Part shown: piece by piece, positions 5,364 through 35,092 of the stretch
How positions within the stretch are numbered: the stretch's first letter is position 1
Layout: every line of letters starts with the position of its first letter
Source: an uncultured Clostridia bacterium
GTDB taxonomy: Bacteria > Bacillota > Clostridia > TANB77 > CAG-508
Reading direction: 5' to 3'
DNA length: 40,032 bases
Assembly: GCA_947629625.1 (NCBI GenBank)
Contig: CANRES010000006.1
Coordinates: forward strand, 1 to 40,032
Notes under the pieces: generated by a model
Told to the model about the DNA's origin: nothing
The model's database searches: none
The model's input: the letters and a program-made list of their open reading frames with translations, nothing else
Made by a program: the position numbers and the translations under genes

Positions 5364-5389
5364 AATTTCTCCTTGTTTTTAATATATGT

Positions 5390-6046: not shown

Positions 6047-6075
6047 TACTTTATTTCCTTTCTTTTTTATTGTTT

Positions 6076-7242
6076 TTATTCCTTCGTTGGTATTCTTATT
6101 ACAACTTCTGTTCCTTCTCCTACCACACTTTTAATATCTATACTACCATTATTTTTATCTAATATTTCTTTTGCTATTGATAAGCCTAGTCCTGTTCCTC
6201 CTAATTCCCTAGTTCTTGCTTTATCTACTCTATAAAATCTTTCAAATATTCTTGTTAAGTCTTCTTCTGGTATTCCAAGTCCAGTATCTATTATTTTTAT
6301 ATAGGCATCATTATATACAAATCCTACATATATTTTTATTTTTCCGTTTTCTGGTGTATATTTTATGCTATTTGTAAGTATATTTAGTACTACTCTTTCT
6401 ATTCCATCTTTATTTGCATATACTAATGGTACATTTGCCGTAACAAAGCATTCTGTTTGTAAATTTTTTTTGTCTATTTCTAATTGTAATTTTTTTTGAC
6501 ATTCTTTTACTAGTTCTCCTAAGTCAAATTGTGTTTTTTCTTCTTTTATTTCATTATTATCAAATTTTGATAGTGTTAGTAAGTCTGTAACTAGTTTTGC
6601 CATTCTTCTTGCTTCTGTTGATATTACATTTAAGAAGTTTGTTTGTGTTTCTTTATCATATTCTCCTTCTGCTAATGTATCTGCATACCCCATTATTGAT
6701 GTAATTGGTGTTTTTAGTTCATGTGATACATCTGCTACAAACTCTTTTCTCATATTATCTAGTCTTACATGCTCTGTAATGTCTTGTATTAATACCATTA
6801 TTCCTGCTGGTCTATCTTTTTCGTCTTTGAATGATGCAAATAGTAGTTTTAAGTAGTTATCTCCTACATTTATTCTTTTTTCTGATGATGTCCAATTTTC
6901 TAAATATATTTGTTTTTCCATATTTATATCTACATCATATTTTTTAAATATTTTTTCAAAGTTATCGTCTTCTGGTAATATTCTTAATTGTCTTGTTGCT
7001 GCCGGATTTACTAATATTATTCTTCCTTCCATATTAAATGCTATTATTCCATCTGTCATGTGTAATAATATTGTCTTTAAATATTGTTTTTCTACATCCT
7101 CTGTTATTGTGTTTTTTTCTGCTCCTTTTATTAACTTTCTTTTTGGTCTTCTTAGTTTTATTAATATTATTATTCCTATTATAATTAATATTAATAGAAG
7201 TACTGCTATTATGCAGTACATTATCATTTCTTTTTCTAACAT
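6076..7242 (-). CDS. Sensor histidine kinase, WalK/PhoR-like
   Basis: A 388-residue membrane sensor kinase partnered with the response regulator upstream. It has one N-terminal transmembrane helix (about residues 7-28), a short linker and a PAS domain (about 55-155) with a LIQDITE end. The HisKA domain has the H-box VSHELKTPITSI (His174), and the C-terminal HATPase contains NILTNSIKYTP, DTGLGIPEEDL and GGTGLGLSIA. There is no large extracellular sensor loop, unlike classical WalK or PhoR with two membrane helices. Whether it is the cell-wall (WalK) or phosphate (PhoR) type cannot be decided from sequence alone. Confidence 0.88.
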   Translation of the reverse strand: MLEKEMIMYCIIAVLLLILIIIGIIILIKLRRPKRKLIKGAEKNTITEDVEKQYLKTILLHMTDGIIAFNMEGRIILVNPAATRQLRILPEDDNFEKIFKKYDVDINMEKQIYLENWTSSEKRINVGDNYLKLLFASFKDEKDRPAGIMVLIQDITEHVRLDNMRKEFVADVSHELKTPITSIMGYADTLAEGEYDKETQTNFLNVISTEARRMAKLVTDLLTLSKFDNNEIKEEKTQFDLGELVKECQKKLQLEIDKKNLQTECFVTANVPLVYANKDGIERVVLNILTNSIKYTPENGKIKIYVGFVYNDAYIKIIDTGLGIPEEDLTRIFERFYRVDKARTRELGGTGLGLSIAKEILDKNNGSIDIKSVVGEGTEVVIRIPTKE

Positions 7243-7292
7243 CTTTTTTCCTCTTTTTTATCATGAAATAAGGCAAAGTTTCTCATTGACTT

Positions 7293-8024
7293 CTATTTAT
7301 CTGCTATATAATATCCTACTCCTCTTTTTGTTATTAGCATTTTTGGTAGGTTTGAGTCTTTTTCTATTTTTTCTCTTATTCTTCTAACTGTAACATCTAC
7401 TGTTCTTATATCTCCATAATATTCATATCCCCATACTTTTTCAAGTAATACTTCTCTTGTTACTACTTGACCGGGTTGACTTGCTAAATATTTTAATACT
7501 TCGAATTCTCTTAATGTTAAATCTATTATTGTTTTTCCTATTCTAACTTCAAATTTTTCTAAGTCTAATTCTAATTGACCTACTTTTATTCTGTGTCCAT
7601 TTTCTTGTTGTGGATTATTATTTTTTTCTGTTTTTGCTATTTCTACTTTTCTTAGGTTTGCTTTTATTCTTGCCATTAATTCTCTTACACTAAATGGTTT
7701 TGTAATGTAATCGTCTGCTCCTAATTCTAATCCTAATATTTTATCTATTTCTTCGTCTTTTGCACTTAACATTATTATTGGTATATTTAAAGTGTTTCTA
7801 ATTTTTTTACATACTGTTAATCCATCCATTCCCGGTAACATTATGTCTAATAATATTAAGTCTGGTTTTTTATCTAATGCTATATCTACGGCAGTTGCAC
7901 CATCTGCTGCTTCTAACGTTTCATAGCCTTCTTTTTTTAAGTTATATACTAATATATCCATTATTGGTTTTTCGTCATCTACTATTAATATTGTTTTTTT
8001 ATCTTTTATATTTTCTTCTTCCAT
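7293..8024 (-). CDS. OmpR-family response regulator, WalR/PhoP-like
   Basis: A 243-residue DNA-binding response regulator. The receiver domain (about residues 10-125) has the acidic pocket Asp16-Asp17, the phosphoacceptor Asp60 in LLDIMLPGMDG, and Lys in ITKPFSVRE. The C-terminal winged helix carries LTLREFEVLKYLA and DVTVRRIREKIE with the final GVGYYI. The linker of about 25 residues is polar. It is the first gene of the six-gene operon, with AAAGGAGG before the ATG and a recognisable promoter at 8053-8081. Cognate kinase: the next gene, 50 bases downstream. Confidence 0.9.
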   Translation of the reverse strand: MEEENIKDKKTILIVDDEKPIMDILVYNLKKEGYETLEAADGATAVDIALDKKPDLILLDIMLPGMDGLTVCKKIRNTLNIPIIMLSAKDEEIDKILGLELGADDYITKPFSVRELMARIKANLRKVEIAKTEKNNNPQQENGHRIKVGQLELDLEKFEVRIGKTIIDLTLREFEVLKYLASQPGQVVTREVLLEKVWGYEYYGDIRTVDVTVRRIREKIEKDSNLPKMLITKRGVGYYIADK

Positions 8025-11812: not shown

Positions 11813-14800
11813 ATGAAAAAGATGTTTAACTTAACTGCTCCACAAAATTCAATATGGCTTACGGAACAATATTATAACAACACAAATATTAACAACATCT
11901 GTGGTTCTGTAACTATTTCTACAAAAGTTGATTTTGATAAACTTAATGATGCAATTAATATATTTGTAAAAAATGCAGATAGTTTTAGAATTAAACTTTT
12001 TATGGATAATACTGTTGTAAAACAATATATAAGCGATTTTGTTGAATTTAATTGCGAAGTTATTAATGTTAACTCAGACGAAGATGTAAAATCATTAGAA
12101 AAAAGAGTTGCAAGTGTTCCATTTAATTTAACAAAAGATTTATTATTTAATTTTAAATTATTTAAGTTTCCAAATGGAACAGGAGGCTTTATTTTTGATG
12201 CTCATCATATTATTTCTGATTCTTGGACACTTGGTATTGCAGTTAATGAAATTATAAAAATTTACTCTTGTTTATTAAAAAATGAAGAAGTTGATTGCTC
12301 TAATATTTTTTCTTATACAGATTATATTGCTTCTGAAAGCGATTATTTAAAAAGTGATAAATTTTTAAAAGATAAAGAATATTGGGATAATATATATTCT
12401 ACTATACCTGAAATTGCTTCTATTCCAAGTGTTAATACAGACGAATTAAAAAATATATCTACTAATGCTAATAGAGAATTGGTTAGTATTGATAATGATT
12501 TATTAAAATCTATAAATAGTTTTTGTACAGAAAATAAGGTTTCTGTATATAACTTTTTTATGGCTATTTTTTCAATTTATATAAATAAGATATCTAATTT
12601 AGACGATTTTGTAATTGGTACCCCTATTTTAAATAGGGCTAATTTTAAAGAAAAACATACTCCTGGTATGTTTATTAATACTATTCCTTTACGTATTTCA
12701 TTAGATAATAACATTTCTTTTAAAAATATTGTTTCAAATATTGCTACAAATTCTATGGGAATGTTAAGACATCAAAAATATTCTTATCAATATATTATAG
12801 AAAATTTAAGAAAAATAGATTCTAGTTTACCTAATTTATATAACATTATGATTTCTTATCAAGTTACTAAAACATTAGATAATATTGATGTAGTTCCTCA
12901 TAATACTAGATGGACTTTTAATGGCACTATTGCTGATGATTTAGAGATTCATTTATTTGATTTTAATGATGCTTCTGGTTTAAATATTGCTTATGATTAT
13001 ATATGTGATAAATATTCTAAAACTGATATTGTTAATATTCATAAGCGTATTTTACATATTATTAATCAAATTATTGATAATAATGAAATTTGTTTAAAGG
13101 ATATTGAAATTATTACTCCTGATGAGAAAAATAAAATTTTATATGATTTTAATAATACAAAGGTAGATTACCCTAAAGATAAAACTGTTGTAGATTTATT
13201 TGAAGAACAAGTTGCAAGAACTCCTAATAATATTGCAGTTGTTTTTGAAGATAAGAAATTAACTTATAAAGAATTAAATGAAAAGGCAAATGGGTTAGCG
13301 CATTATTTATTAGATAATGGTGTTACACCTAATGATATTGTGGCTATTATGGTTAATCGTTCACTAGAAATGATTATTGGTATTTTGGCTATTTTAAAAT
13401 GTGGTGGAGCATATTTACCTATTGACCCTAAATTTCCAATAGATAGAATTTCATATATGTTACAAGATAGTAATTGTAAAACTATTTTACTAAATAATAA
13501 TACATTTAATTTAATTAATAAAGATTTTAAAAAAGTTAATATTGATTTATCTTCAAAAATATATAATAATAATAAATCTCAAAATATAAATACACAAATA
13601 TCCATTAATAACTTAATATATTTAATATATACTTCTGGCTCAACAGGAAAACCAAAAGGTGTTTTAATTACGCATAAAAATATATTAAATTTTATTTACG
13701 GAACTAAAGCCATTATTAATTTTAATAATAAAACAATGGTTTCTTTAACAACTATTTGTTTTGATATTTTTGCATTAGAATTATGGTGTTCTTTAACAAG
13801 TGGAATTAAATTAGTAATTGCAAATGAAGAAGAACAAAGTAATTCTTACTATTTGAATAAACTAGTTTCAAAAAATAATGTAAATATGATTCAAACAACC
13901 CCTTCAAGATATACTGCCTTAATAAATGATAAAAACAATTTATCTTATTTTAATTCTTTGACAGATATAATGATAGGTGGAGAACCTGTACCTTCTAAAT
14001 TATTAGAAAATTTAAAAGAAATTAGTAATGCTAAGATATATAATATGTATGGTCCAACAGAGACAACTGTATGGTCTACAATAAAAGATTTATCAAATGA
14101 CAATGAAATTACTGTTGGAAAACCTATTGCTAATACAACTTGCTATATTTTAGATAAAAATATGAATTTACTTCCACCACTTGTTGCTGGTGAACTTTAT
14201 ATAGGTGGAGATGGTGTTTCTAATGGTTATAAAAATAGAGAAGACTTAACAAATGAAAAATTTATTAATTCTCCTTTTAAAGCAAATGAAATTATATATA
14301 ACACTAATGATTTAGCATATTTTAAACCAAACGGAGAAATTGTGCACTTAGGAAGAACTGATTTTGAATTAAAAATAAATGGATATAGAATAGATCTTTT
14401 TGATATAGAAAAAAATATTTTAAATAACTCTAATATTACAAATTGCGTTGTAATGCCAATTAATTTAGAAAATAATAAAAAAATTCTTTGTGCTTATATA
14501 ACAAGTAATGTAAAAATTGATATTAAAAATTTAAAAAATGATTTATTAAAAGTTTTACCAAAATATATGATTCCAACTCGTTTTATTCAAATTGATAAAA
14601 TGCCATTTACTCCAAATGGAAAAATAGATAGAAATGCATTACAAAAAATAAATGTAAATACCACAAATGATATAGATATTCCTATGGAATATAATGATTT
14701 AACAAAAAAAATTGTAAATATTATTTATAATAAATTTCAAATTAATAATATTAATATTAATGATAATTTATTTGAAATAGGTTTAGATTCTCTAAGTATT

Positions 14801-17800
14801 ATACTACTATCAACATTTTTATCAAATGAATTTAAAATTAATATTACTATAAAAGATTTAATTGAATGTAATTCTATTATGGAATTGGCAGATATAGTTT
14901 CAAATAAATCTAATGAAACTAATAAAGATATAATTGAAAAAACAGAGCAACAAGAATATTATCCAGTATCTTCTGCTCAAAGAAGAATGTACTATGCTTC
15001 TAGTTTAGATGGAAATAATTCTTTGTTATATAACATTGCGGGTGGAGCAATTTTAAATAAAATGCCTGATGTTAAAAAATTAGAAAAATGTATTAATATT
15101 TTAATTAAAAGACATGAATCTTTACATACATATTTTGACATAGTTGATGGTAATATTGTACAAAAAATACTAGATAATTTTGATTTTAAATTAGAGGTTG
15201 TAAACTCTAATATTACTGATGTTGATGCTTTATTTAATAATTTTGTTAAACCATTTAATTTAAACAAAGCACCTTTATTTGATGTAAAATTAATTAATTT
15301 TGATAACAAAGTATTTTTATTATTTAATATGCACCATATTATTAGTGATGGTACTTCTGTTTCAATTTTTATTGAAGAACTTTGTAAGTTATACAATACT
15401 GATACTGAATTACCTGAACTTAATATTAGTTATAAAGATTTTGCCGTTTGGGAAAATAAAAAAATAAATTCCAATGAATTTAATAGTGATAAAGAATTTT
15501 GGGTTAATCAATTTAATGATGAAATACCTTTATTAAATATGCCTACAAACTTTTCAAGACCTACCGTTCAAAGTTTTGAAGGTGATAATGTTTATTCTAC
15601 AATTAATAAAGAATTAACTTTAAAATTAAATGAATTATCAAAAGAACTTCAAATTACACCTTATATGCTACTTTTAAGCATTTATTATATACTTTTATAT
15701 AAATATACAGGCCAAGAAGATATTATAGTTGGCTCACCTATTGTTGGTAGAGATAATTCACAAGTTTCTAATATAATTGGTATGTTTGTAAATTCATTGG
15801 CTTTAAGAAATAAAATAGATACTTCTTTATCTTTCAAGGAATTTACAAATATTATTAAAGAAAATTGTTTAAAAGCATTTGAACATCAAGCATATCCTTT
15901 CGACGAATTAGTTAATGCTTTAAATATTAAAAGAGATACAAGTAGAAATCCTTTATTTGATACAATGTTTATTTATCAAAATAATGGTAATGCTACTTTA
16001 TCTTTCAATGGTATAAATTCTAAAACTTATGTACCAAAAAGTAATATTTCAAAATTTGATTTATCAATTGAAATTGTACCTGAAAATAGCGAATTAAATT
16101 TACGTTTTGAATATTGTACAAAACTTTTTGAAAAGAAATTTATAACTGAACTTTCAAATCATTATTTGAATATTTTACAAATTATTTTAAATAATAATGA
16201 TATTAAAATTGCTGATATAGATATGCTTTCAAAAGAAGAAAGAAATAAAATTTTATTTGATTTTAATAATACAAAAGTTGATTATCCAAAGGATAAAACT
16301 GTTGTAGATTTATTTGAAGAACAAGTTGCAAGAACGCCTAATAATATTGCAGTTGTTTTTGAGGATAAGAAATTATCTTATAAAGAATTAAATGAAAAGG
16401 CAAATCAATTAGCATATTATTTAAATAAAAATGTAAATGAAAATAATGTTATTGGTATTATGTTAGAGCGTTCTTTTGAAACTATTATTTGTATGTTAGC
16501 AGTTTTAAAATCTAACAATGCCTACATGTTAATTGATACTGGTCTTCCAGAAGATAGAATTTTATATATGCTAAATAATGCTAATTCTCCTTTATTAATT
16601 ACAAATACTAAGGTAAATAATGTTAGTTTTGAAAATAAATTATTTATTGACAGTGAAGATTTTAGCAAATTTAATAATGATAACTTAAAATTAAATTATA
16701 ATATAAATAATAATTTATCTGTAGTTTATACATCTGGCTCAACTGGCTTACCAAAAGGAGTTTTACTAAATCAAAAAGGAATGATTAATTTAATTTATAG
16801 TTATAGAGATTTTATAGATATAAAACATTTTAGTAACTTTTTAAGTATTTGTTCTATTTCTTTTGATATGTTTGGTGTTGAAGTTTATATACCTTTATTA
16901 AATAATAAAACTTTAATTTTAGCAAATGAAGAAGAACATAAAGACCCTATGTCTATAAGTAAATTAATTCAAATAAATAATGTAGATTTTATGATGATTA
17001 CTCCTTCAAAAATTGAATTATTATTAACTAATGATTATACATGTAAAAGTTTAAAAATATTAAAAAGTATACAATTAGGGGGAGAAACATTAAATTCTAA
17101 CTTATTTGAACAATTAAGGAAATATACCAATGCACAAATTTGTAATGAATATGGTCCTTCTGAAATTACTTCTTGTTGTACTTATAAAGAAATTGTATCT
17201 TCACAAAATATTAACATTGGAAAGCCTATTAGTAATGTTCAAATATATATACTTAATAAAGATATGAATCTATGCCCTATTGGTATTGAAGGAGAAATTT
17301 GTGTTAGTGGTAATGGTGTTTCTAACGGATATATTAATAATAAAGTAGCAACTGATAAAGTATTTGTTCAAAATTCATTTGGAAATGGTTTATTATATAA
17401 AACTGGAGATATTGGAAAATATGATTCTAATGGGGATATAGAATATATTGGTAGAAAAGATTTTCAAGTTAAATTAAGAGGTTTAAGAATTGAATTATCT
17501 GAAATTGAAAAACAATTTTTAAATATTCCTAATATTAAAAATTGTGCGGTTATTTATAAAAATGAGCCTAATAACAATTCATATTTAGTAGCTTTCTTTA
17601 CGGCTACAAGCAATATAGAAATTCAAGAAATTAGAGAAGAATTATCTAAACATTTACCATTATATATGGTGCCTAAATATATTATTAAATTAGATAATAT
17701 GCCTATTACTAGAAACGGAAAAATAGATTTAAACAAATTAAAAGAATATCAAATTTCAGCTTATGAAACATCACATTATGTAGCACCTGAAACTGAACTA

Positions 17801-20800
17801 CAAAAAATATTCTGTGATACATGGGAACAATTATTAAATACAAGAGTTGGTATTAATGACGATGTTTTTGAATTAGGTGCAGATTCACTTCTTGCTATTA
17901 AATTTAAAGTTGAAATGCTTTCTAAAAATATTGATGTACAATATGCGGATATTTTTAAATTTCCTACTGTTAAAAAATTCTGTGAAAATAATTTAGCACC
18001 TTTAAATAAAGGAGAACATATTATTACAAAAGCAGAAAAACAAGAATATTATCCAGTATCTTCTGCACAAAAAAGAATGTACTATGCTTCTAGTTTAGAT
18101 GACAACAATTCTTTGTTATATAACATTGCAGGTGGAACAATTTTAAATAAAATGCCTGATGTTAAAAAATTAGAAAAATGTATTAATACTTTAATAAAAA
18201 GACATGAATCTTTACGTACATATTTTGATATAGTTGATGGTAATATAGTACAAAAAATATTAGATAATTTTAATTTTAAATTAGAAGTTGTAAACTCTAA
18301 TATTACTGATGTTGATGCTTTATTTTATAAATATATTAAACCATTTAATTTAAATAAAGCACCTTTATTTGATTTAAAATTAATTAATTTTGATAACAAA
18401 GTATTTTTATTATTTAATATGCACCATATTATTAGTGATGGTACTTCTTTTTCAATTTTTATTAACGAACTTTGTGAGTTATATAACAATGATACTGAAT
18501 TACCTGAGCTTAATATTAGTTATAAAGATTTTGCAGTTTGGGAAAATCAAAAAATAAATTCTAATGAATTTAATAATGATAAAGAATTTTGGGTTAATCA
18601 ATTTAATGATGAAATACCTTTATTAAATATGCCTACAAACTTTTCAAGACCTACCGTTCAAAGTTTTGAAGGTGATAATGTTTATTCTACAATTAATAAA
18701 GAATTAACTTTAAAATTAAATGAATTATCAAAAGAACTTCAAATTACACCTTATATGCTACTTTTAAGCATTTATTATATACTTTTATATAAATATACAG
18801 GCCAAGAAGATATTATAGTTGGCTCACCTATTGTTGGTAGAGATAATTCACAAGTTTCTAATATAATTGGTATGTTTGTAAATTCATTGGCTTTAAGAAA
18901 TAAAATAGATACTTCTTTATCTTTCAAGGAATTTACAAATATTATTAAAGAAAATTGTTTAAAAGCATTTGAACATCAAGCATATCCTTTCGACGAATTA
19001 GTTAATACTTTAAATATAAAAAGAGATACAAGCAGAAATCCTTTATTTGATACAATGTTTATTTATCAAAATAATGGTAATGCTACTCTATCTTTTAATG
19101 GTATAAATTCTAAAACTTATGTACCAAAAAGTAATATTTCAAAATTTGATTTATCACTTGAAATTGTACCTGAAAATAGCGAATTAAATTTACGTTTTGA
19201 ATATTGTACAAAACTTTTTGAAAAGGAATTTATAACTAGTCTTTCAAATCATTATTTGAATATTTTACAAGTTATTTTAAATAATAATGATATTAAAATT
19301 GCTGATATAGATATGCTTTCAAAAGAAGAAAGAAATAAAATTTTATATGATTTTAATAACACAAAGGTAGATTATCCAAAGGATAAAACTGTTGTAGATT
19401 TATTTGAAGAACAAGTTAAAAATAACCCTAATAATATTGCAGTTGTTTTTGAAGATAAAAAATTAACTTATAAAGAATTAAATGAAAAGGCAAATGGGTT
19501 AGCACATTATTTAAATAAAAATGTAAATGAAAATAATGTTATCGGTATTATGTTAGAACGTTCTTTTGAAACTATTATTTGTATGTTAGCAGTTTTAAAA
19601 TCTAACAATGCCTACATGTTAATTGATACTGGTCTTCCAGAAGATAGAATTTTATATATGCTAAATAATGCTAATTCTCCTTTATTAATTACAAATACTA
19701 AGGTAAATAATGTTAGTTTTGAAAATAAATTATTTATTGATAACGAAGATTTTAGTAAATTTGATAAAGATAATTTAAAATTAAATTATAATATAAATAA
19801 TACTTTTTGCATTATTTATACATCTGGTTCAACTGGTACTCCAAAAGGTGTTGAACTTAAAAATAATGGTGTTGTAAATCTTGTATTAAGTTATAGAATT
19901 AATTTAAATACAGATATATGTAATAATTTCATAAGTATTAGTACAGTTGCTTTCGATATGTTTATTGTAGAAACATTTGTGCCTTTATTATCAGGTAAAA
20001 CTATAATACTATCAAATGTAGAAGAACAAAAAATTCCAACATATATAAGTAATTTAATTATTAAATACAATGTAGATTTCATATTAACTACACCATCAAG
20101 AATTGATTTACTTTTAATTAATGAAGATACAAGAATTTGTTTAGAAAAATTAAAAATTATACAATTGGGTGGAGAAAATTTTACCACTAATTTATATGAA
20201 AAATTAAAAAATTATACTAATGCAAATATATATAATGGTTATGGTCCTAGTGAAATTACCGCTTGTTGTTCAAATAAAAAAGTAACAACTAATAAAATTA
20301 ATATTGGTAAACCAAATTGCAATACTCAAATTTATATACTTAATAAAGATATGAATTTATGTCCTATTGGTATTGAAGGAGAAATTTGTATTAGTGGTAA
20401 TGGTCTTGCAAAAGGTTATATTAATAATAAAGTAGCAACTAATAAAGTATTTGTTCAAAATCCGTTTGGAAATGGTTTATTATATAAAACTGGAGATATT
20501 GGAAAATATAATTCTAATGGAGATATAGAATATATTGGCAGAAAAGATTTTCAAGTTAAATTAAGAGGTTTAAGAATTGAATTATCTGAAATTGAAAAAC
20601 AATTTTTAAATATTCCTAATATTAAAAATTGTGCTGTTATTTATAAAAATGAGCCTAATAACAATTCTTATTTAGTAGCTTTCTTTACGGCTACAAGCAA
20701 TATAGAGATTCAAGAAATAAGAGAAGAATTATCTAAACATTTACCATTATATATGGTGCCTAAATATATTATAAAATTAAATAATATGCCTATTACTAGA

Positions 20801-22294
20801 AATGGAAAAATAGATTTAAATCAATTAAAAGAATATCAAATTTCTGCTTATGAAACATCACATTATGTAGCACCCGAAACTGAATTACAAAAAATATTCT
20901 GTGATACTTGGGAACAATTATTAAATACAAGAGTTGGTATTAATGACGATATTTTTGAATTAGGTGCAGATTCACTTCTTGCTATTAAATTTAAAGTTGA
21001 AATGCTTTCTAAAAATATTGATGTACAATATGCGGATATTTTTAAATTTCCTACTGTTAAAGGTTTATCTGAAGCAAATTCAGCAACTATTGCAGAAGTA
21101 GTAGATAATTATGATTATACAAGAATAAATGAGGTATTAGAAAAAAATAATATAAAAAATTATAAAAATATCGTATCTAATAAAAATAATAATATTCTTT
21201 TATTAGGTTCTAATGGTTTTGTTGGTATGCACATTTTATACAATTTTATTAAACACGATAATGGAATTATTTATTGTATTGTTAGAGATAAAAACAAAAT
21301 ATCTGCTAGAAGTAGATTTTTAGATGCTTTACATTTCTATTTTGATACAAAATTAGACGAATTTATTGATAATAGAATTGTTATTTTAAAAGGTGATATA
21401 ACAAAAGAAAATTTTGGTTTAAATATTAATTTATATGAAGATATTGTAAACAATATTTCTGTTGTTATTAATTCTAGTGCTAATGTAAGACACTATGGAA
21501 ACTTTGAAAATTTTGAAAATATTAATATTGGTTTAACTAAAAAAGCTATAGAATTTTGTGAAAAACATAATAAGAGATTAATTCAAATATCTACTACAAG
21601 TGTTTGTGGTAATATTGAAAAAGATAAAAATATATCATTTTCTGAAAATAATTTATACATAGGTCAAAAATTAGATAATGTTTATATTAAGAGTAAATTT
21701 GAAGCAGAAAGAATTATTTTAGAACATATTTCTAATGGTTTAAATGCACAAATTTTAAGACTTGGTAATATAACTAATAGATTTAGTGATGGTAAATTTC
21801 AAATTAATGTTGAAGAAAATGCATTTGTAGGTATGTTACAATCTTTAATAAATTTAGGTGCTATACCTGAATATTTATTAAATGCTAAATTAGAATTTAC
21901 ACCTGTTGATTTATGTGGTTACGCTATTATTTTATTAATGCAAAATTATGTGCCTGATTTTAGTGTTTTTCATTTATATAATTCTAATTCTATAAGTATG
22001 AAAAACTTTATAGACTTGCTAAAAAATAATAATATTAATTTAAAAATACTTAGTGAAGTAGATTTTGAAAATAAAGTAAAAGAAATTTTAATGGATGATA
22101 GTAAAAAAGATATATTATCTGGTATTGTTAATGAGTTAAGTTCTAATAATAAACTAGAATTTAATTCTAATATAGATATTTTATCTGAATTTTCGAGAAA
22201 ATTTTTAAATACTATTGACTTTAATTGGTTAAAAATAGATAATATATATGTAAAAAAATATATAGATTATTTTAAAAATATTAATTTTATTTAA
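11813..22294 (+). CDS. Three-module non-ribosomal peptide synthetase with terminal reductase (C-A-T-C-A-T-C-A-T-R)
   Basis: A 3493-residue single-chain assembly line. Condensation domains lie at about 1-430, 1045-1470 and 2077-2500, with HHxxxD motifs at about 131, 1174 and 2204; the first reads HHIISDSW, with Ser replacing the usual Gly. Adenylation domains are at about 453-950, 1490-1980 and 2519-3010 (TSGSTG, YGP(T/S)E, NGKID). Carrier serines lie near 992, 2024 and 3053 in G(L/A)DSL. A reductase spans about 3125-3493: LLLGSNGFVG for NADPH, ISTTS and YIKSK as the SDR-type triad. The product is predicted to be a tripeptide released as an aldehyde, or as an alcohol after a second reduction. 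An N-terminal C domain often adds a fatty acyl cap. The hand-read A1 code DILQMGMVWK resembles glycine codes; DMVMQGESCK (A2) and DMVLQGGACK (A3) are not recognised. No thioesterase, epimerase, MbtH, transporter or phosphopantetheinyl transferase gene is in the window. Confidence 0.93.
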   Translation: MKKMFNLTAPQNSIWLTEQYYNNTNINNICGSVTISTKVDFDKLNDAINIFVKNADSFRIKLFMDNTVVKQYISDFVEFNCEVINVNSDEDVKSLEKRVASVPFNLTKDLLFNFKLFKFPNGTGGFIFDAHHIISDSWTLGIAVNEIIKIYSCLLKNEEVDCSNIFSYTDYIASESDYLKSDKFLKDKEYWDNIYSTIPEIASIPSVNTDELKNISTNANRELVSIDNDLLKSINSFCTENKVSVYNFFMAIFSIYINKISNLDDFVIGTPILNRANFKEKHTPGMFINTIPLRISLDNNISFKNIVSNIATNSMGMLRHQKYSYQYIIENLRKIDSSLPNLYNIMISYQVTKTLDNIDVVPHNTRWTFNGTIADDLEIHLFDFNDASGLNIAYDYICDKYSKTDIVNIHKRILHIINQIIDNNEICLKDIEIITPDEKNKILYDFNNTKVDYPKDKTVVDLFEEQVARTPNNIAVVFEDKKLTYKELNEKANGLAHYLLDNGVTPNDIVAIMVNRSLEMIIGILAILKCGGAYLPIDPKFPIDRISYMLQDSNCKTILLNNNTFNLINKDFKKVNIDLSSKIYNNNKSQNINTQISINNLIYLIYTSGSTGKPKGVLITHKNILNFIYGTKAIINFNNKTMVSLTTICFDIFALELWCSLTSGIKLVIANEEEQSNSYYLNKLVSKNNVNMIQTTPSRYTALINDKNNLSYFNSLTDIMIGGEPVPSKLLENLKEISNAKIYNMYGPTETTVWSTIKDLSNDNEITVGKPIANTTCYILDKNMNLLPPLVAGELYIGGDGVSNGYKNREDLTNEKFINSPFKANEIIYNTNDLAYFKPNGEIVHLGRTDFELKINGYRIDLFDIEKNILNNSNITNCVVMPINLENNKKILCAYITSNVKIDIKNLKNDLLKVLPKYMIPTRFIQIDKMPFTPNGKIDRNALQKINVNTTNDIDIPMEYNDLTKKIVNIIYNKFQINNININDNLFEIGLDSLSIILLSTFLSNEFKINITIKDLIECNSIMELADIVSNKSNETNKDIIEKTEQQEYYPVSSAQRRMYYASSLDGNNSLLYNIAGGAILNKMPDVKKLEKCINILIKRHESLHTYFDIVDGNIVQKILDNFDFKLEVVNSNITDVDALFNNFVKPFNLNKAPLFDVKLINFDNKVFLLFNMHHIISDGTSVSIFIEELCKLYNTDTELPELNISYKDFAVWENKKINSNEFNSDKEFWVNQFNDEIPLLNMPTNFSRPTVQSFEGDNVYSTINKELTLKLNELSKELQITPYMLLLSIYYILLYKYTGQEDIIVGSPIVGRDNSQVSNIIGMFVNSLALRNKIDTSLSFKEFTNIIKENCLKAFEHQAYPFDELVNALNIKRDTSRNPLFDTMFIYQNNGNATLSFNGINSKTYVPKSNISKFDLSIEIVPENSELNLRFEYCTKLFEKKFITELSNHYLNILQIILNNNDIKIADIDMLSKEERNKILFDFNNTKVDYPKDKTVVDLFEEQVARTPNNIAVVFEDKKLSYKELNEKANQLAYYLNKNVNENNVIGIMLERSFETIICMLAVLKSNNAYMLIDTGLPEDRILYMLNNANSPLLITNTKVNNVSFENKLFIDSEDFSKFNNDNLKLNYNINNNLSVVYTSGSTGLPKGVLLNQKGMINLIYSYRDFIDIKHFSNFLSICSISFDMFGVEVYIPLLNNKTLILANEEEHKDPMSISKLIQINNVDFMMITPSKIELLLTNDYTCKSLKILKSIQLGGETLNSNLFEQLRKYTNAQICNEYGPSEITSCCTYKEIVSSQNINIGKPISNVQIYILNKDMNLCPIGIEGEICVSGNGVSNGYINNKVATDKVFVQNSFGNGLLYKTGDIGKYDSNGDIEYIGRKDFQVKLRGLRIELSEIEKQFLNIPNIKNCAVIYKNEPNNNSYLVAFFTATSNIEIQEIREELSKHLPLYMVPKYIIKLDNMPITRNGKIDLNKLKEYQISAYETSHYVAPETELQKIFCDTWEQLLNTRVGINDDVFELGADSLLAIKFKVEMLSKNIDVQYADIFKFPTVKKFCENNLAPLNKGEHIITKAEKQEYYPVSSAQKRMYYASSLDDNNSLLYNIAGGTILNKMPDVKKLEKCINTLIKRHESLRTYFDIVDGNIVQKILDNFNFKLEVVNSNITDVDALFYKYIKPFNLNKAPLFDLKLINFDNKVFLLFNMHHIISDGTSFSIFINELCELYNNDTELPELNISYKDFAVWENQKINSNEFNNDKEFWVNQFNDEIPLLNMPTNFSRPTVQSFEGDNVYSTINKELTLKLNELSKELQITPYMLLLSIYYILLYKYTGQEDIIVGSPIVGRDNSQVSNIIGMFVNSLALRNKIDTSLSFKEFTNIIKENCLKAFEHQAYPFDELVNTLNIKRDTSRNPLFDTMFIYQNNGNATLSFNGINSKTYVPKSNISKFDLSLEIVPENSELNLRFEYCTKLFEKEFITSLSNHYLNILQVILNNNDIKIADIDMLSKEERNKILYDFNNTKVDYPKDKTVVDLFEEQVKNNPNNIAVVFEDKKLTYKELNEKANGLAHYLNKNVNENNVIGIMLERSFETIICMLAVLKSNNAYMLIDTGLPEDRILYMLNNANSPLLITNTKVNNVSFENKLFIDNEDFSKFDKDNLKLNYNINNTFCIIYTSGSTGTPKGVELKNNGVVNLVLSYRINLNTDICNNFISISTVAFDMFIVETFVPLLSGKTIILSNVEEQKIPTYISNLIIKYNVDFILTTPSRIDLLLINEDTRICLEKLKIIQLGGENFTTNLYEKLKNYTNANIYNGYGPSEITACCSNKKVTTNKINIGKPNCNTQIYILNKDMNLCPIGIEGEICISGNGLAKGYINNKVATNKVFVQNPFGNGLLYKTGDIGKYNSNGDIEYIGRKDFQVKLRGLRIELSEIEKQFLNIPNIKNCAVIYKNEPNNNSYLVAFFTATSNIEIQEIREELSKHLPLYMVPKYIIKLNNMPITRNGKIDLNQLKEYQISAYETSHYVAPETELQKIFCDTWEQLLNTRVGINDDIFELGADSLLAIKFKVEMLSKNIDVQYADIFKFPTVKGLSEANSATIAEVVDNYDYTRINEVLEKNNIKNYKNIVSNKNNNILLLGSNGFVGMHILYNFIKHDNGIIYCIVRDKNKISARSRFLDALHFYFDTKLDEFIDNRIVILKGDITKENFGLNINLYEDIVNNISVVINSSANVRHYGNFENFENINIGLTKKAIEFCEKHNKRLIQISTTSVCGNIEKDKNISFSENNLYIGQKLDNVYIKSKFEAERIILEHISNGLNAQILRLGNITNRFSDGKFQINVEENAFVGMLQSLINLGAIPEYLLNAKLEFTPVDLCGYAIILLMQNYVPDFSVFHLYNSNSISMKNFIDLLKNNNINLKILSEVDFENKVKEILMDDSKKDILSGIVNELSSNNKLEFNSNIDILSEFSRKFLNTIDFNWLKIDNIYVKKYIDYFKNINFI
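15511..17995 (+). repeat. NRPS module 2 copy of an internal duplication
   Basis: This part of C2-A2-T2 repeats about 3090 bases later as C3-A3-T3. Long runs are identical by eye, for example 15511-15900 with 18601-18990. Identity falls inside the adenylation core (about 16705-17265) and recovers after it. Confidence 0.85.
18601..21060 (+). repeat. NRPS module 3 copy of an internal duplication
   Basis: Partner of the module 2 copy. The offset is 3090 bases before the adenylation core and about 3087 after it. The divergent core is about 19795-20340. The match ends just after the carrier domain, where the chain passes into the reductase. Confidence 0.85.
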
Positions 22295-29278: not shown

Positions 29279-30643
29279 TTATCTATCCATATCTCTTTTT
29301 GAAAGATTTGTATTAATTAATTTTAATTTTTCTAATTGCCTCTCTGTAATATTTATGACTTTGCCACAACAAGGATTAAAGGCTTTGTTTCCATATACTA
29401 GCCAAATAATATTTTCATTTTTTAAATCATCTTTTGGCATTGTACCTGGACATGGATAACCGTCAGTAAAAACTATTTTATTTATTTCCCTTTTTTTAGT
29501 GAAGCTTCTTACTGCTAAATCCCAGTCTTCTGTCCAAGCAGAATGTCCTCTTGCATCACTTGGTATAGTGAAATTATCTATATCTCTTACATTTTTAATA
29601 TCTACGAGTCCCCAAAATTTTTCATTAAAACATCCTACTTTTAATTTTGACTGTTTTAATAATGGCTTTATTTGTCTTAAAAAAGCCTTAACTAAATCTA
29701 ATTCTACTGAACCAGAAACATCTATCATAATTTCTGTTTCTGCTTCATCTTCAATGTCATTTTCTTCTAATCTATAAGCATAGTTGTTTTCTGCAATAGC
29801 ACGTCTTTTACTCCATATTGTTTCTGTTTTTTCTACTTCTCTTCGTATTAAAACTTTCCAGTCAATTTCTTCTTTGCTTTCTCCTATGTTATCTAATTTT
29901 ATTTTTTCCTCTGTTTTTCCTCTTATTTCTTGTTCTATTTTTTCACGTCTTTCTTTAAATTTTTCTCTTTTTTCTTCTCTATTTTCTGTGAAATCCATTT
30001 TTTCATTAAATTCAAATTCTTGGTCTTCTACGGATTTTTGGTCTTTTTTACTTTGATTTTTCTCTTGTTCGTTATTTTTAAATGCTTCTTTCCATAAACT
30101 ATGGTCATCACCTTGTTGTGATGTATTATCGCCATTTTGCTCTTGTTGCTCTCCACCTTGTTCTTGTTGGTCCCCACTTTGTTGTTGCCCTCCACTTTGC
30201 TCTTGTTGTTCTTCATTTTGTTTCTGTTGTTGCTTTTGCTTTTTTTCTTGTTCTTTTAATAAAATTTGATAAAATTCTTCTGCTGAATAATTTAATGCTT
30301 CTGGCATATTTACATACCCTTCTTTAATAGTAAAACCATCTCTTTCTAGATTTGCATTTATAATAGCATCTGTTGCTATATTCCATAATTTTGGATTTCT
30401 TGCTTTACCATCTTTATCCTTTAATCTAAACATGTGCATAAATTTAATATGCATTATTTCGTGTGCTACTAAAAATAATTTATCATTTTCACTTAAACTT
30501 GCAAAATAATTTGGGTCAATATAAATTGTTTTTCCATCAGTTGCTGCCGTATAGCAATTTTTGAATTCAATATTTGCTTTTGCTATTTCACTTCCAAATT
30601 TAGGGTATTTAGTTAGGATTTTTCTTTTTATATCATAAAACAT
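29279..30643 (-). CDS. DUF2201-type metallopeptidase-like protein with C-terminal VWA domain
   Basis: A 454-residue two-domain protein. The N-terminal domain has a zinc-protease motif, HEIMH (residues 61-65), within LVAHEIMHIKFMH. A Gln/Glu/Lys-rich linker of low complexity spans about 130-210. The C-terminal VWA-like domain has the metal-site motif DVSGSV (from Asp308) and ends with a cysteine pair (NPCCGK). VWA proteins of this kind are the usual partners of MoxR AAA+ ATPases, which remodel a target that the VWA protein helps to select. It overlaps the upstream MoxR gene by 11 bases, so translation is coupled. Actual proteolysis is unproven; only the HExxH motif supports it. Confidence 0.85.
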   Translation of the reverse strand: MFYDIKRKILTKYPKFGSEIAKANIEFKNCYTAATDGKTIYIDPNYFASLSENDKLFLVAHEIMHIKFMHMFRLKDKDGKARNPKLWNIATDAIINANLERDGFTIKEGYVNMPEALNYSAEEFYQILLKEQEKKQKQQQKQNEEQQEQSGGQQQSGDQQEQGGEQQEQNGDNTSQQGDDHSLWKEAFKNNEQEKNQSKKDQKSVEDQEFEFNEKMDFTENREEKREKFKERREKIEQEIRGKTEEKIKLDNIGESKEEIDWKVLIRREVEKTETIWSKRRAIAENNYAYRLEENDIEDEAETEIMIDVSGSVELDLVKAFLRQIKPLLKQSKLKVGCFNEKFWGLVDIKNVRDIDNFTIPSDARGHSAWTEDWDLAVRSFTKKREINKIVFTDGYPCPGTMPKDDLKNENIIWLVYGNKAFNPCCGKVINITERQLEKLKLINTNLSKRDMDR

Positions 30644-32852
30644 AATCTTCCTCTTTCATTTCTTTATTTTTTTCTTTCATTAAATAATTACTATACATTT
30701 TACCTATATCATTATAAGCAATAGTGCCTTCTTTTACATATTGTTTTGCTTCATTTGAATTATATAAAGATAGTTCCATTTCTTGTAATTCTGCTATTTG
30801 TTCCATTTTTCTTTCATCTTTTCCTGCCCAATATATATCGTAAATTGAAAGATATTCTGGGTCGCAATATTTTTTTATAAATTTTCTGCAAGCCTCTACT
30901 TGTGTTTCATTTGCTGTTATTAATGCAGTCATATAACTAAATCTTTCATTTATATCTTTTGGTAAATCTGCTTGTGTATATCCAACTCCCATCCCTTTTA
31001 CTACTTCTTCCGGAGTTAGTGTTGGAAGATTATAAAAGTCAAAAAATTCACTTGCCCATTCCATACGAAGTTTTGATTCTAATGACCTTTGAATTATATC
31101 TTCAACATTTTTTCCTTTATATTTACCTTCTTCTAAATTCCTTTCAAAATTATATAGTGTATTTGAAATTGAAGTCCATCCACGAGGGTCATTTGTTCTT
31201 CCTTTACATCCATTTGCATCTAAGTTCTGTTCTCCTATTTCTGGCTCTTCATAAAAATAATCTATATCTTCTATATCTTCACTTTTTCCTGAATTGTTAT
31301 ATTTTGATAACATATATCCTATTACTGCTGGATGTATTTTATTTGGTATTGCATATTCTGTTATCCATTCTCCAACTTTTGGCTCCATATCTAATATGTG
31401 GTCAAATCTTTTTTCTAATGGTTCTGCTAGGTCTTCTGCTACACTTGAATATTTTTTCTGATTTCCAGTTGCAACAACTACAACATTATCTGGTAATTTT
31501 AGCCCTTTTCCTATTTCTACAATTCTATTTAATACTAACGTATATACTAAACTTTGTACTGCTGGTTTTACATTTAAAAGTTCGTCTAGCATTATTACAA
31601 TTTTTTTATTACTTTCTTTTGACCTTTCATATACTGTATCTGCTATATTGTATATGTTTTGTATATTTTCTTCTATTAATTTTCTTTCTTCTTCTGTTGC
31701 TTCTTGCATAATTACAGTTTTTGCAAAGTCTGGTGGTATACTTTGCCCTGTTTGTATATTAACTGAACCTACTACTTTTTCTGGGAACATATTATTTGTT
31801 AATTTTATATATATTAAATCTGGGTATAGTGATTTTATTCTTTCTGTTTTTCCTATTCCAGATGGTCCTCTAAGTAATACTGATTCTCCTGATTCTATCC
31901 AGTTATGTATTATTTCCGTATCTGTCATGTTTGTTCTTGAAGATGTCTTTGTTTTATCTGGGTTTAATTTTTGTAGTCTTGATTTTCTAGTTCCAATTTC
32001 TTCTATTTCTTCTTGTTGTTTTTCTAAATCTATTGTTTCTCTTAATTGTTCTAATTCTTTTGATAAATATTTATCCATAAATAATTTTATATCTGTTTTA
32101 TCAAAATCTTTTGTATGATAATCTCTTTCATATTTGAATTGAACTCCTGCAAAAATTATTTTTTCTGTTATCATAATTTTTGCTTTTTCATCAACTAACC
32201 ATTTTACTGGAGATACTTCTACCCATACATTATCTCCACTTTTATATTCTTCTCCATTTGAAAGTTGAAAACTATAATAACTTAAATTAGCTTCAACTCT
32301 CACATATCTTTTTCCTTTATATTGATATTCCTCATGTCTTTTTGGCTCAAATTTTTCACCAAAATTATCATATTTTTTTGAGTCTGTTGTATAAACATTT
32401 CCTGTTCTTGATAATTTTCCACTTTTAAGTGCTTGTTCTAATTCTAATTGCATATCTTTCGTAACTGCTTTTTGTGGATAGTATCCATATTCTACTTCAA
32501 AAATTCCATCTCTTGCTCTTTTCCCACTTACTCCGTTCGTGGGGATTGAGCCGATTAATGAGAACGGTAAAGCTGGGCGAGCCCCACCATAGCGTCTAGT
32601 AACATCGAGACAATTTCTAGAACCATTCTCGTTAACCACGCGCGCGTCATTATCCCCGTCATCTGATTTAGTCCAATAATGACCTGTTCTACCTTCTAAA
32701 GAATAATCACTTTCTATATGATCGTCTGAAAAATATCCTCCTAAAAGAATAGAAAAATCTGTTATTGCCGCCTTAGTTCCTCTTTTTTTAAATATATCTA
32801 ATCTATCACTTCCAAAACATTGTTCTTCTGTTAAAAATGTAAGTTTACTCAT
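30633..32852 (-). CDS. MoxR-type AAA+ ATPase with variable N-terminal domain (copy A)
   Basis: A 739-residue protein. Residues 1-100 form a domain with a hypervariable stretch (57-89) bounded by RT..YWTKS and GARPALPF. Residues 100-240 (from VEYGYYPQ to GVQFK) look like a DUF6273-type domain. A charged linker leads to the AAA+ module: Walker A GPSGIGKT (329-336), Walker B IVIMLDEL (Asp423, Glu424), sensor VVVATGN and arginine finger EKRFDHI. This fits a MoxR-like remodelling ATPase whose N-terminus may recognise a target. It is the middle gene of a three-gene operon, 5 bases after copy B, and overlaps the VWA gene. The ATPase part is identical by eye to copy B over about 1 kb. The start follows GGAGTAAAAAAT. 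Confidence 0.85.
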   Translation of the reverse strand: MSKLTFLTEEQCFGSDRLDIFKKRGTKAAITDFSILLGGYFSDDHIESDYSLEGRTGHYWTKSDDGDNDARVVNENGSRNCLDVTRRYGGARPALPFSLIGSIPTNGVSGKRARDGIFEVEYGYYPQKAVTKDMQLELEQALKSGKLSRTGNVYTTDSKKYDNFGEKFEPKRHEEYQYKGKRYVRVEANLSYYSFQLSNGEEYKSGDNVWVEVSPVKWLVDEKAKIMITEKIIFAGVQFKYERDYHTKDFDKTDIKLFMDKYLSKELEQLRETIDLEKQQEEIEEIGTRKSRLQKLNPDKTKTSSRTNMTDTEIIHNWIESGESVLLRGPSGIGKTERIKSLYPDLIYIKLTNNMFPEKVVGSVNIQTGQSIPPDFAKTVIMQEATEEERKLIEENIQNIYNIADTVYERSKESNKKIVIMLDELLNVKPAVQSLVYTLVLNRIVEIGKGLKLPDNVVVVATGNQKKYSSVAEDLAEPLEKRFDHILDMEPKVGEWITEYAIPNKIHPAVIGYMLSKYNNSGKSEDIEDIDYFYEEPEIGEQNLDANGCKGRTNDPRGWTSISNTLYNFERNLEEGKYKGKNVEDIIQRSLESKLRMEWASEFFDFYNLPTLTPEEVVKGMGVGYTQADLPKDINERFSYMTALITANETQVEACRKFIKKYCDPEYLSIYDIYWAGKDERKMEQIAELQEMELSLYNSNEAKQYVKEGTIAYNDIGKMYSNYLMKEKNKEMKEEDYVL
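30884..31916 (-). repeat. Identical ATPase-coding block, copy A
   Basis: Line-by-line reading shows no difference from 33124-34156 (offset 2240 bases). It covers the AAA+ core from Walker A towards the C-terminus. Divergence resumes on both sides. Confidence 0.85.
32523..32544 (-). other. GC-rich hairpin just downstream of variable region A
   Basis: CCCAC (32523-32527) pairs with GTGGG (32539-32543), about 40 bases after the variable segment in coding direction. The hairpin lies in a stretch of codons (ACC/ACG, CCC, AAC) unusual for this genome. It occupies the position of the initiation-of-mutagenic-homing region and hairpin known from DGR target genes. Confidence 0.4.
32586..32684 (-). other. 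Candidate DGR variable region in MoxR copy A
   Basis: These 33 codons (residues 57-89) differ from copy B at 29 of 99 bases without any gap. Hand alignment gives 25 differences at codon positions 1 and 2 and 4 at position 3; 22 codons change and only one change is silent. C-ending codons (GAC, CGC, AAC, CTC) are concentrated here although the genome strongly prefers A/T-ending codons, as expected from an AAC-rich template. Confidence 0.65.
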
Positions 32853-32857
32853 ATTTT

Positions 32858-35092
32858 TTACTCCTTGATTTTTTCATTATTATAATCTTCCTCTTTCATT
32901 TCTTTATTTTTTTCTTTCATTAAATAATCATTGTACATTTTACCTATATCATTATAAGCAATAGCACCTTTTTCTACATATTGTTTTGCTTCATTTGCAC
33001 TATATAAAGATAGTTCCATTTCTTGTAATTCTGATATTTGTTCCATTTTTTTTTCATCTTTTCCTGCCCAATATATATCATAAATTGAAAGATATTCTGG
33101 ATCGCAATATTTTTTTATAAATTCTCTGCAAGCCTCTACTTGTGTTTCATTTGCTGTTATTAATGCAGTCATATAACTAAATCTTTCATTTATATCTTTT
33201 GGTAAATCTGCTTGTGTATATCCAACTCCCATCCCTTTTACTACTTCTTCCGGAGTTAGTGTTGGAAGATTATAAAAGTCAAAAAATTCACTTGCCCATT
33301 CCATACGAAGTTTTGATTCTAATGACCTTTGAATTATATCTTCAACATTTTTTCCTTTATATTTACCTTCTTCTAAATTCCTTTCAAAATTATATAGTGT
33401 ATTTGAAATTGAAGTCCATCCACGAGGGTCATTTGTTCTTCCTTTACATCCATTTGCATCTAAGTTCTGTTCTCCTATTTCTGGCTCTTCATAAAAATAA
33501 TCTATATCTTCTATATCTTCACTTTTTCCTGAATTGTTATATTTTGATAACATATATCCTATTACTGCTGGATGTATTTTATTTGGTATTGCATATTCTG
33601 TTATCCATTCTCCAACTTTTGGCTCCATATCTAATATGTGGTCAAATCTTTTTTCTAATGGTTCTGCTAGGTCTTCTGCTACACTTGAATATTTTTTCTG
33701 ATTTCCAGTTGCAACAACTACAACATTATCTGGTAATTTTAGCCCTTTTCCTATTTCTACAATTCTATTTAATACTAACGTATATACTAAACTTTGTACT
33801 GCTGGTTTTACATTTAAAAGTTCGTCTAGCATTATTACAATTTTTTTATTACTTTCTTTTGACCTTTCATATACTGTATCTGCTATATTGTATATGTTTT
33901 GTATATTTTCTTCTATTAATTTTCTTTCTTCTTCTGTTGCTTCTTGCATAATTACAGTTTTTGCAAAGTCTGGTGGTATACTTTGCCCTGTTTGTATATT
34001 AACTGAACCTACTACTTTTTCTGGGAACATATTATTTGTTAATTTTATATATATTAAATCTGGGTATAGTGATTTTATTCTTTCTGTTTTTCCTATTCCA
34101 GATGGTCCTCTAAGTAATACTGATTCTCCTGATTCTATCCAGTTATGTATTATTTCTGTGTCTGTCATGTTTGTTCTTGAAGAAGACTTCGTATCATCGG
34201 GGTTTAATTTTTGTAGTCTTGATTTTCTAGTTCCAATTTCTTCTATTTCTTCTTGTTGTTTTTCTAAATCTATTGATTTTTCTAATTCTTTTGATAAATA
34301 TTTATCCATAAAAATTTTTATATCTGTTTCATCAAAATTTTTTGTATTATAACCTCTTGTAGATTTGAATTGAACTCCTGAAAAAATTAATTTTTCAGTT
34401 ATCATAATTTTTGATTTTTCGTCAACTAACCATTTTACTGGTGATACTTCTACCCATACATTATCTCCATTTCTATATTTCTCTCCATTTGAAAGTATAA
34501 ATCCATTTTCAACAAAATATGACTTAGCTTCAACTCTCACATATTTTTTTTCGTTATATTGATATTCCTCGTGCCTTTTTGGCTCAAATTTATCATCATA
34601 ATCATCATATTTTTTTGAATCTGTTGTATAAACATTTCCTGTTTTTGATAATCTTCCACTTTTAAATGCTTGTTCTAATTTTAATTGCATATCTTTTGTT
34701 ACTGCTTTTTGTGGATAGTATCCATATTCTACTTCAAAAATTCCATCTTCTGCTCTTTTACCACTCACTTCGTTCGTGGGGATTGAGCCAATTGATGAGA
34801 ACGGTAAAGCTGGACGAGCCCCACAATTGCGTTCAATAATATCGCGCCAACTCACACTACCATCTCCGTAAACTACGCACACGCAATTATTCCCGTAATT
34901 TGATTTAGTCCAATAAAAACTTGTTCTACTTCCTAAATAATCAGCACTATCTATGTAATGCAGTGGTGAACGATATCCTCCTAAAAGAATAGAAAAATCT
35001 GTTATTGCCGCCTTAGTTCCTCTTTTTTTTAATATATCTAATTTATCACTTCCAAAGCATTGTTCTTCTGTTAAAAATGTAAGTTCACTCAT
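32858..35092 (-). CDS. MoxR-type AAA+ ATPase with variable N-terminal domain (copy B)
   Basis: A 744-residue tandem paralogue of copy A and the first gene of the operon. The layout is the same: conserved start (LTFLTEEQCFGSD), variable stretch at residues 58-90, GARPALPFSSIGSIP, DUF6273-like region to about 245, charged linker, then the AAA+ module with Walker A at 329-336. It differs from copy A by a one-codon insertion before the variable core, a shorter linker (ELEKSIDLEKQ) and a longer C-terminal tail. The ATPase core is identical by eye. The two copies could form mixed hexamers that present different recognition surfaces; this is inference. Its promoter carries an inverted repeat at 35126-35159. 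Confidence 0.85.
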   Translation of the reverse strand: MSELTFLTEEQCFGSDKLDILKKRGTKAAITDFSILLGGYRSPLHYIDSADYLGSRTSFYWTKSNYGNNCVCVVYGDGSVSWRDIIERNCGARPALPFSSIGSIPTNEVSGKRAEDGIFEVEYGYYPQKAVTKDMQLKLEQAFKSGRLSKTGNVYTTDSKKYDDYDDKFEPKRHEEYQYNEKKYVRVEAKSYFVENGFILSNGEKYRNGDNVWVEVSPVKWLVDEKSKIMITEKLIFSGVQFKSTRGYNTKNFDETDIKIFMDKYLSKELEKSIDLEKQQEEIEEIGTRKSRLQKLNPDDTKSSSRTNMTDTEIIHNWIESGESVLLRGPSGIGKTERIKSLYPDLIYIKLTNNMFPEKVVGSVNIQTGQSIPPDFAKTVIMQEATEEERKLIEENIQNIYNIADTVYERSKESNKKIVIMLDELLNVKPAVQSLVYTLVLNRIVEIGKGLKLPDNVVVVATGNQKKYSSVAEDLAEPLEKRFDHILDMEPKVGEWITEYAIPNKIHPAVIGYMLSKYNNSGKSEDIEDIDYFYEEPEIGEQNLDANGCKGRTNDPRGWTSISNTLYNFERNLEEGKYKGKNVEDIIQRSLESKLRMEWASEFFDFYNLPTLTPEEVVKGMGVGYTQADLPKDINERFSYMTALITANETQVEACREFIKKYCDPEYLSIYDIYWAGKDEKKMEQISELQEMELSLYSANEAKQYVEKGAIAYNDIGKMYNDYLMKEKNKEMKEEDYNNEKIKE
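33124..34156 (-). repeat. Identical ATPase-coding block, copy B
   Basis: Partner of the block at 30884-31916. About 1.03 kb without a visible difference implies very recent duplication or ongoing gene conversion. Confidence 0.85.
34823..34921 (-). other. Candidate DGR variable region in MoxR copy B
   Basis: This counterpart of 32586-32684 encodes residues 58-90. Variable codons include TAC, TGC, TGC, TAC and CGC at sites where copy A has GAC, GAC, CGC, AAC and CTC: the third-base C is kept while the first two bases change. It is flanked by constant TATTGGACTAAATCA upstream and GGGGCTCG downstream. Confidence 0.65.

Follow-up and report, generated by a model that had tools for sequence, protein, structure and literature searches.

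Tandem MoxR-type ATPases of uncultured Clostridia as likely targets of a diversity-generating retroelement

The stretch of DNA analysed here, referred to as the window, consists of 40,032 nt of an uncultured Clostridia bacterium (contig CANRES010000006.1, positions 1-40,032), whose genome is available as a draft (GCA_947629625.1; 68 contigs, 98% complete, 1.26 Mb). It carries two tandem paralogous genes, B and A, for AAA+ ATPases that we call MoxR-type on the basis of their AAA_5 matches and not of a phylogeny, followed by a partner gene with a DUF2201_N domain (Table 1). Near the N-terminus of each ATPase, at residues ~68-95 of ~740, lies a variable region (VR). With a probability of about 0.9, a chromosomal diversity-generating retroelement (DGR) targets this N-terminal domain, the VRs of the window itself most likely being frozen. 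The reverse transcriptase (RT) of such an element would copy a template repeat (TR) of ~80 bases with errors at adenines.

The ATPase parts of genes A and B share a perfectly identical run of 1032 nt, in agreement with the ~1 kb noticed in an earlier reading of the window made from its letters alone, the sequence-only reading, which had singled out a hypervariable 99-base segment (34823-34921 in gene B versus 32586-32684 in gene A). Our recount reproduces its 29 differences, 25 of them at codon positions 1 and 2 (15 and 10, respectively) and 4 at position 3, as well as its 22 changed codons, 20 of which are non-synonymous where 21 had been claimed. Codons ending in C are indeed avoided in the window (5.3% C and 10.7% G+C, or GC3, at the third position of 7395 codons), and across the homologues the VR reaches a GC3 of ~40% and its 3' flank one of 48%, compared with 13% for the remaining N-terminal region. 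The extent of the segment needed correction: the part matched by a template overlaps most of it, but is offset and only ~84 bases long, leaving ~34 bases at the 5' end outside the template. The A/B differences in these bases and further upstream are ordinary divergence. Within the template-matched core there are 22 differences, 13-16 of which fall on template adenines depending on the relative whose TR is chosen (p = 4e-5 to 4e-3).

The templates come from related genomes. A search of 390 genomes of the same family with a reconstructed template, being the VR with its variable sites set to A, returned full-length VR-like matches and shorter second matches 1.3-5 kb away. In at least 11 of these relatives, a TR and an RT adjoin the orthologous ATPase targets, with a complete DGR directly upstream, and the gene order is Avd-like open reading frame (ORF), TR, RT, one or two genes joining the N-terminal domain to the AAA part, and the DUF2201_N gene. 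The TR, ~80 bases long and non-coding, lies near the RT and matches the VR of the target. Over 14 TR-VR pairs from 11 loci, a TR and its own VR mismatch at 145 of 346 template adenines and at only 6 of 690 other bases (Fisher p=4e-71). The RT matches RVT_1 (E=2e-16) and is 70-100% identical among most of the loci; its near-full-length copies are open and contain the motifs LGNQSSQ (LGxxxSQ) and YMDD. A DGR-type RT is marked by the motif pair [ILV]GxxxSQ and YxDD. The Avd-like ORF of locus L068 matches bAvd (Pfam ID PF22296) with E=9e-5 and 23.4 bits, under the 40-bit Pfam cut-off, and its location fits the avd-TR-RT order. Among 388 genomes sampled from the order, 42 have the N-terminal region, and almost all of these belong to a single family; the search used found no homologue of this domain on viral contigs.

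Comparing strains, as the sequence-only reading had proposed, places the variation of the VR on template adenines. The avd-TR-RT cassettes of L068 and L082 are identical at 2098 of 2102 positions, and their VRs differ at 15 sites, all of them template adenines, with 0/723 differences elsewhere in the N-terminal domain; because of this confinement, the DGR is, by sequence criteria, recently active in these relatives. For L081 and L086, 16 of 16 VR differences fall on template adenines, with 13/720 differences elsewhere. As far as genome sequences go, the relatives demonstrate the architecture of a DGR, its adenine specificity and its recent activity. The decay of the RT among relatives is graded, from intact through 5'-truncated (L064, L086), split into two frames (L089) and a remnant (L065/G101) to absent, and several relatives have orphan targets with no matching TR or RT found. 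Two such orphans, L062:10001-10795 and L063:4751-5545, differ at 18 of 75 VR positions and are identical at 720/720 positions outside the VR, and no matching TR or RT was found in either draft genome.

The window's own genome is in a different state. BLAST with a reconstructed TR (all 8 candidates being scored), a degenerate pattern with 3 mismatches and a pattern for the initiation of mutagenic homing (IMH) sequence with 2 mismatches all retrieved only the two VRs and no cognate TR. The 68-contig draft yielded no cognate RT, its sole RT being located on contig C55, and whole cassettes of the relatives, when searched with BLAST against the window, matched the VRs and neither an avd nor an RT. 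In the place of the relatives' cassette, upstream of the targets, an unrelated response regulator/HD gene follows after 188 bp. Since no matching TR and RT were found in its own genome, the tandem pair is probably orphaned, and the two VRs would most likely be frozen products of a former DGR. The VR and acceptor of gene A are nearly clean: compared with the TRs of relatives, the VR has 9-12 adenine and 3-8 non-adenine mismatches, for TRs such as that of L069 10/25 and 3/49. Gene B, whose N-terminal homologues in relatives come with TR and RT, has the decayed copy, with 12-15 adenine and 8-13 non-adenine mismatches (14/25 and 10/49 for TRs such as that of L069). The additional changes at non-adenine sites include several C-to-T and G-to-A, a pattern expected of decay, although some may reflect divergence of the TR. 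The sequence-only reading had proposed that the MoxR N-terminus "is, or was recently" a DGR target and that an RT and a template be looked for. The proposal is borne out by the TR, RT, Avd-like gene and adenine-specific changes of the relatives, at least 11 of which gave both elements, whereas the window's own draft gave neither; with no matching TR or RT, no cassette at the locus and the decay of gene B, "was" is the most likely wording for this genome.

Table 1. Features of the ATPase locus (window positions) and the second DGR of the same genome (contig positions)
Feature	Location	Strand	Basis or remark
Gene B, AAA+ (MoxR/AAA_5-type) ATPase, 744 aa, DGR-target region N-terminal	32858..35092	-	ORF; AAA_5 E=1.9e-6
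VR of gene B, partly decayed	34804..34887	-	only last 30 bp match TR at E<1e-3
IMH-like sequence at 3' end of VR B: GGGGCTCGTCCAG (single change)	34810..34822	-	sequence
Inverted repeat as in gene A, with a mutation in one arm (GAACGA)	34770..34804	-	sequence
Gene A, tandem paralogue of gene B, 739 aa	30633..32852	-	ORF; AAA_5 E=1.8e-6
VR of gene A	32567..32650	-	83% match to L068 TR over 84 bp
IMH-like sequence at 3' end of VR A: GGGGCTCGCCCAG	32573..32585	-	common to relatives' TRs
Inverted repeat CCGTTC...GAACGG directly 3' of gene A IMH, in coding sequence	32533..32567	-	candidate acceptor stem-loop
Partner gene, DUF2201_N putative metallopeptidase domain	29279..30643	-	DUF2201_N E=2e-24
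Second DGR, FGE-type (formylglycine-generating enzyme), L002 (G000:C55:1-7360)	5300-7240	-	gene order: MutS domain I protein (stand-alone), bAvd, RT, TR

The putative homing signals lie within the reading frame. The IMH-like sequence GGGGCTCGCCCAG and, downstream of it, CTTTACCGTTC...CCCCACGAACGG are coding and kept across genera with C/G-ending codons, the type that this AT-rich lineage avoids. Both arms of the inverted repeat CCGTTC/GAACGG are retained in nearly all loci with TR and RT and lost in several diverged copies; when the acceptor flank was folded with DNA parameters, the inverted repeat was not consistently the preferred structure. The pattern fits an IMH and a stem-loop embedded in coding DNA, of which the stem-loop is a suggestion. 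According to a survey of DGRs, a C-terminal position of the VR is near-universal, for the suggested reason that it spares cis-acting DNA any coding constraint (PMC8144416). A VR near the N-terminus, fused to an ATPase and with its putative acceptor signals inside coding DNA, is a clear exception.

Outside the VRs, the tandem genes evolve in concert. In most genomes examined, the bodies of the two ATPases share 95-99% identity and include perfectly matching stretches of 0.7-1.4 kb, more diverged pairs (84-91% identity) being found in L073 and L031. Since the bodies are nearly identical over such long runs, the motors are probably kept uniform by gene conversion, with the DGR acting to vary the sensors. 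The VR itself also seems to be copied between tandem genes, because the two VRs are identical within L064 and within L067, yet 13 VR sites, every one of them a template adenine, distinguish the two genomes.

The family of the variable domain is indicated by a single link, a match of the N-terminal region (E=1.4e-13) to a protein of genome G018 that carries DUF6273 (Pfam ID PF19789), a family found in phage DGR targets (PMC11792537). No DUF6273 match over the cut-off was found in the window's genome, and among the homologues one reaches E=0.039, short of the cut-off. An AlphaFold2 model of the 266-aa N-terminal region has a mean pLDDT of 84.6 and a pTM of 0.86, its VR part being less confident; Foldseek found no match for it at E<=0.001 among the PDB and viral models. 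The 120-aa VR part modelled alone was poorly folded and too poor for a fold search, and sequence searches of the PDB gave nothing useful. The lectin-like or FGE-like fold suggested by the sequence-only reading thus draws some weak support from the sequence link to DUF6273 and none from the structure search.

Several observations weigh against a frozen DGR target as the full account. The genome is a draft of 68 contigs in which a TR and RT may have stayed unassembled, and the pair L062/L063 varies in the VR alone with no matching TR or RT found, so that in drafts an orphaned locus may have arisen very recently or merely reflect sequence missing from the assembly. The proposed ligand, partner mechanism and fold are conjectural, and Foldseek gave no match for the fold. 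The unassembled ~2% of the genome could conceal a TR and RT that still serve both targets in trans, and the fresh variation of L062/L063 and the intact acceptor of gene A agree with this. Such continued activity appears unlikely to us: the relatives have their cassette directly upstream of the targets, where the window has the 188 bp and the response regulator/HD gene, the assembly gave no TR or RT, and gene B departs from active loci in having C-to-T and G-to-A changes at sites other than template adenines.

The machinery might also be sought in the second DGR of the same genome, on contig C55 (MutS_I-like protein, bAvd, RT and FGE-type TR), which is apparently functional, has other targets and could diversify the ATPases in trans. 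A DGR needs a matching template, however, and that of C55 matches neither ATPase VR, so that this action was rejected as highly improbable; the C55 RT, moreover, shares only 33-37% identity with the cognate RT. Ordinary divergence of paralogues, or a binding surface under positive selection, would require no retroelement at all and could account for the mostly non-synonymous differences and for the A/B divergence outside the template. The TR and RT of the relatives, however, and the confinement of differences between near-identical strains to template adenines refute this explanation for the family and leave it scarcely credible for the window.

We return to an N-terminal domain diversified by a DGR and now most likely frozen in the window. 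A complete locus, as in the relatives, comprises an avd-like gene, TR, RT, two targets and the DUF2201_N partner. The cDNA would replace the VR of the downstream genes via the GGGGCTCGCCCAG homing sequence, probably also using the CCGTTC...GAACGG repeat in the reading frame, and up to ~15 residues of a DUF6273-like binding surface would be randomised. This surface may recognise a ligand inside the cell, whereupon the ATPase would pass a signal to the DUF2201/vWA-like partner. In the window's genome the avd-TR-RT block would have been lost, leaving the site in gene A nearly intact and that in gene B decaying. What the loci establish is a DGR-diversified domain fused to an AAA+ ATPase and co-encoded with a DUF2201_N/vWA-like partner; by analogy with what has been proposed for the MoxR-vWA conflict systems (PMC7159879, PMC10907252), it may form an intracellular recognition device in which the ATPase acts on the partner. 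The DUF2201_N gene also follows the tandem ATPases in relatives, and the C-terminus of the window's copy has a weak match to the VWA-like DUF2201 family (E=0.24, below the cut-off). PADLOC gave a DolB match for gene A, which is weak and was judged uninformative. No VMAP, iSTAND or other third component was recognised among the Pfam-scanned neighbours, the scan having no dedicated VMAP model, and we found no literature on a pairing of DUF2201 with MoxR.

The Avd-TR-RT order, the adenine-specific changes from TR to VR and the IMH-like sequence closing the VR resemble BPP-1-type DGRs (avd-TR-brt); these have an inverted repeat just downstream of the IMH (PMC12875486), to which the CCGTTC...GAACGG repeat would correspond. 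BPP-1-type DGRs target a tail fibre, whereas the targets described here are cellular AAA+ ATPases, in tandem, with the VR and the cis-acting DNA in the reading frame near the N-terminus. The combination of a MoxR-type ATPase, a putatively vWA/peptidase-like partner and a DGR in one locus is shared with the MoxR-vWA (VMAP) ternary conflict systems, which are reported mainly from multicellular bacteria and have the variable CLec/FGS domain on the vWA protein or on a separate target by the ATPase (PMC7159879, PMC10907252). In contrast, the variable domain is here fused to the N-terminus of the ATPase, no VMAP was recognised and the host is a small-genome clostridial lineage. A DUF6273-like variable domain is also found in DGR targets of gut Faecalibacterium prophages; in these phage proteins the VR occupies the C-terminus of DUF6273 (PMC11792537), while the present one is a remote DUF6273-like region on an ATPase.

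We consider it rather probable that a DGR lineage of host-associated Clostridia hypermutates an intracellular AAA+ sensor, with an internal VR, coding homing signals, gene-converted bodies, repeated loss of the machinery and, as a result, frozen and inherited receptors. This would place hypermutation directly on a MoxR-type ATPase, inside the cell, in small-genome Clostridia not known to be multicellular, and would strengthen the view that DGRs diversify intracellular sensors more widely. Relatives that have lost RT and TR to different degrees make it possible to ask what becomes of a diversified receptor once it is frozen.

The C55 DGR has variable targets on contigs C64 and C53, a target on C39 being more doubtful. 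Its TR mismatches the C64 and C53 targets at 16/32 and 20/31 adenines and at 10/95 and 15/88 other bases, respectively. The stand-alone MutS domain I protein (L002:6809-7240, minus strand) has homologues in L113, L115, L116 and L124, and such proteins are located within 1-2 kb of RT genes in several relatives, making a role as DGR accessory possible; we found no literature describing them near DGR RTs. The end of contig C55 (L002 ~7262-7360) consists of about five 19-bp tandem repeats (AATAAAAAAACGGTACCAA), which probably caused the assembly break beside this DGR.

Elsewhere in the window, positions 11813-22294 of the plus strand encode a trimodular nonribosomal peptide synthetase of 3493 aa with three condensation domains, three AMP-binding domains and a terminal reductase domain (NAD_binding_4).
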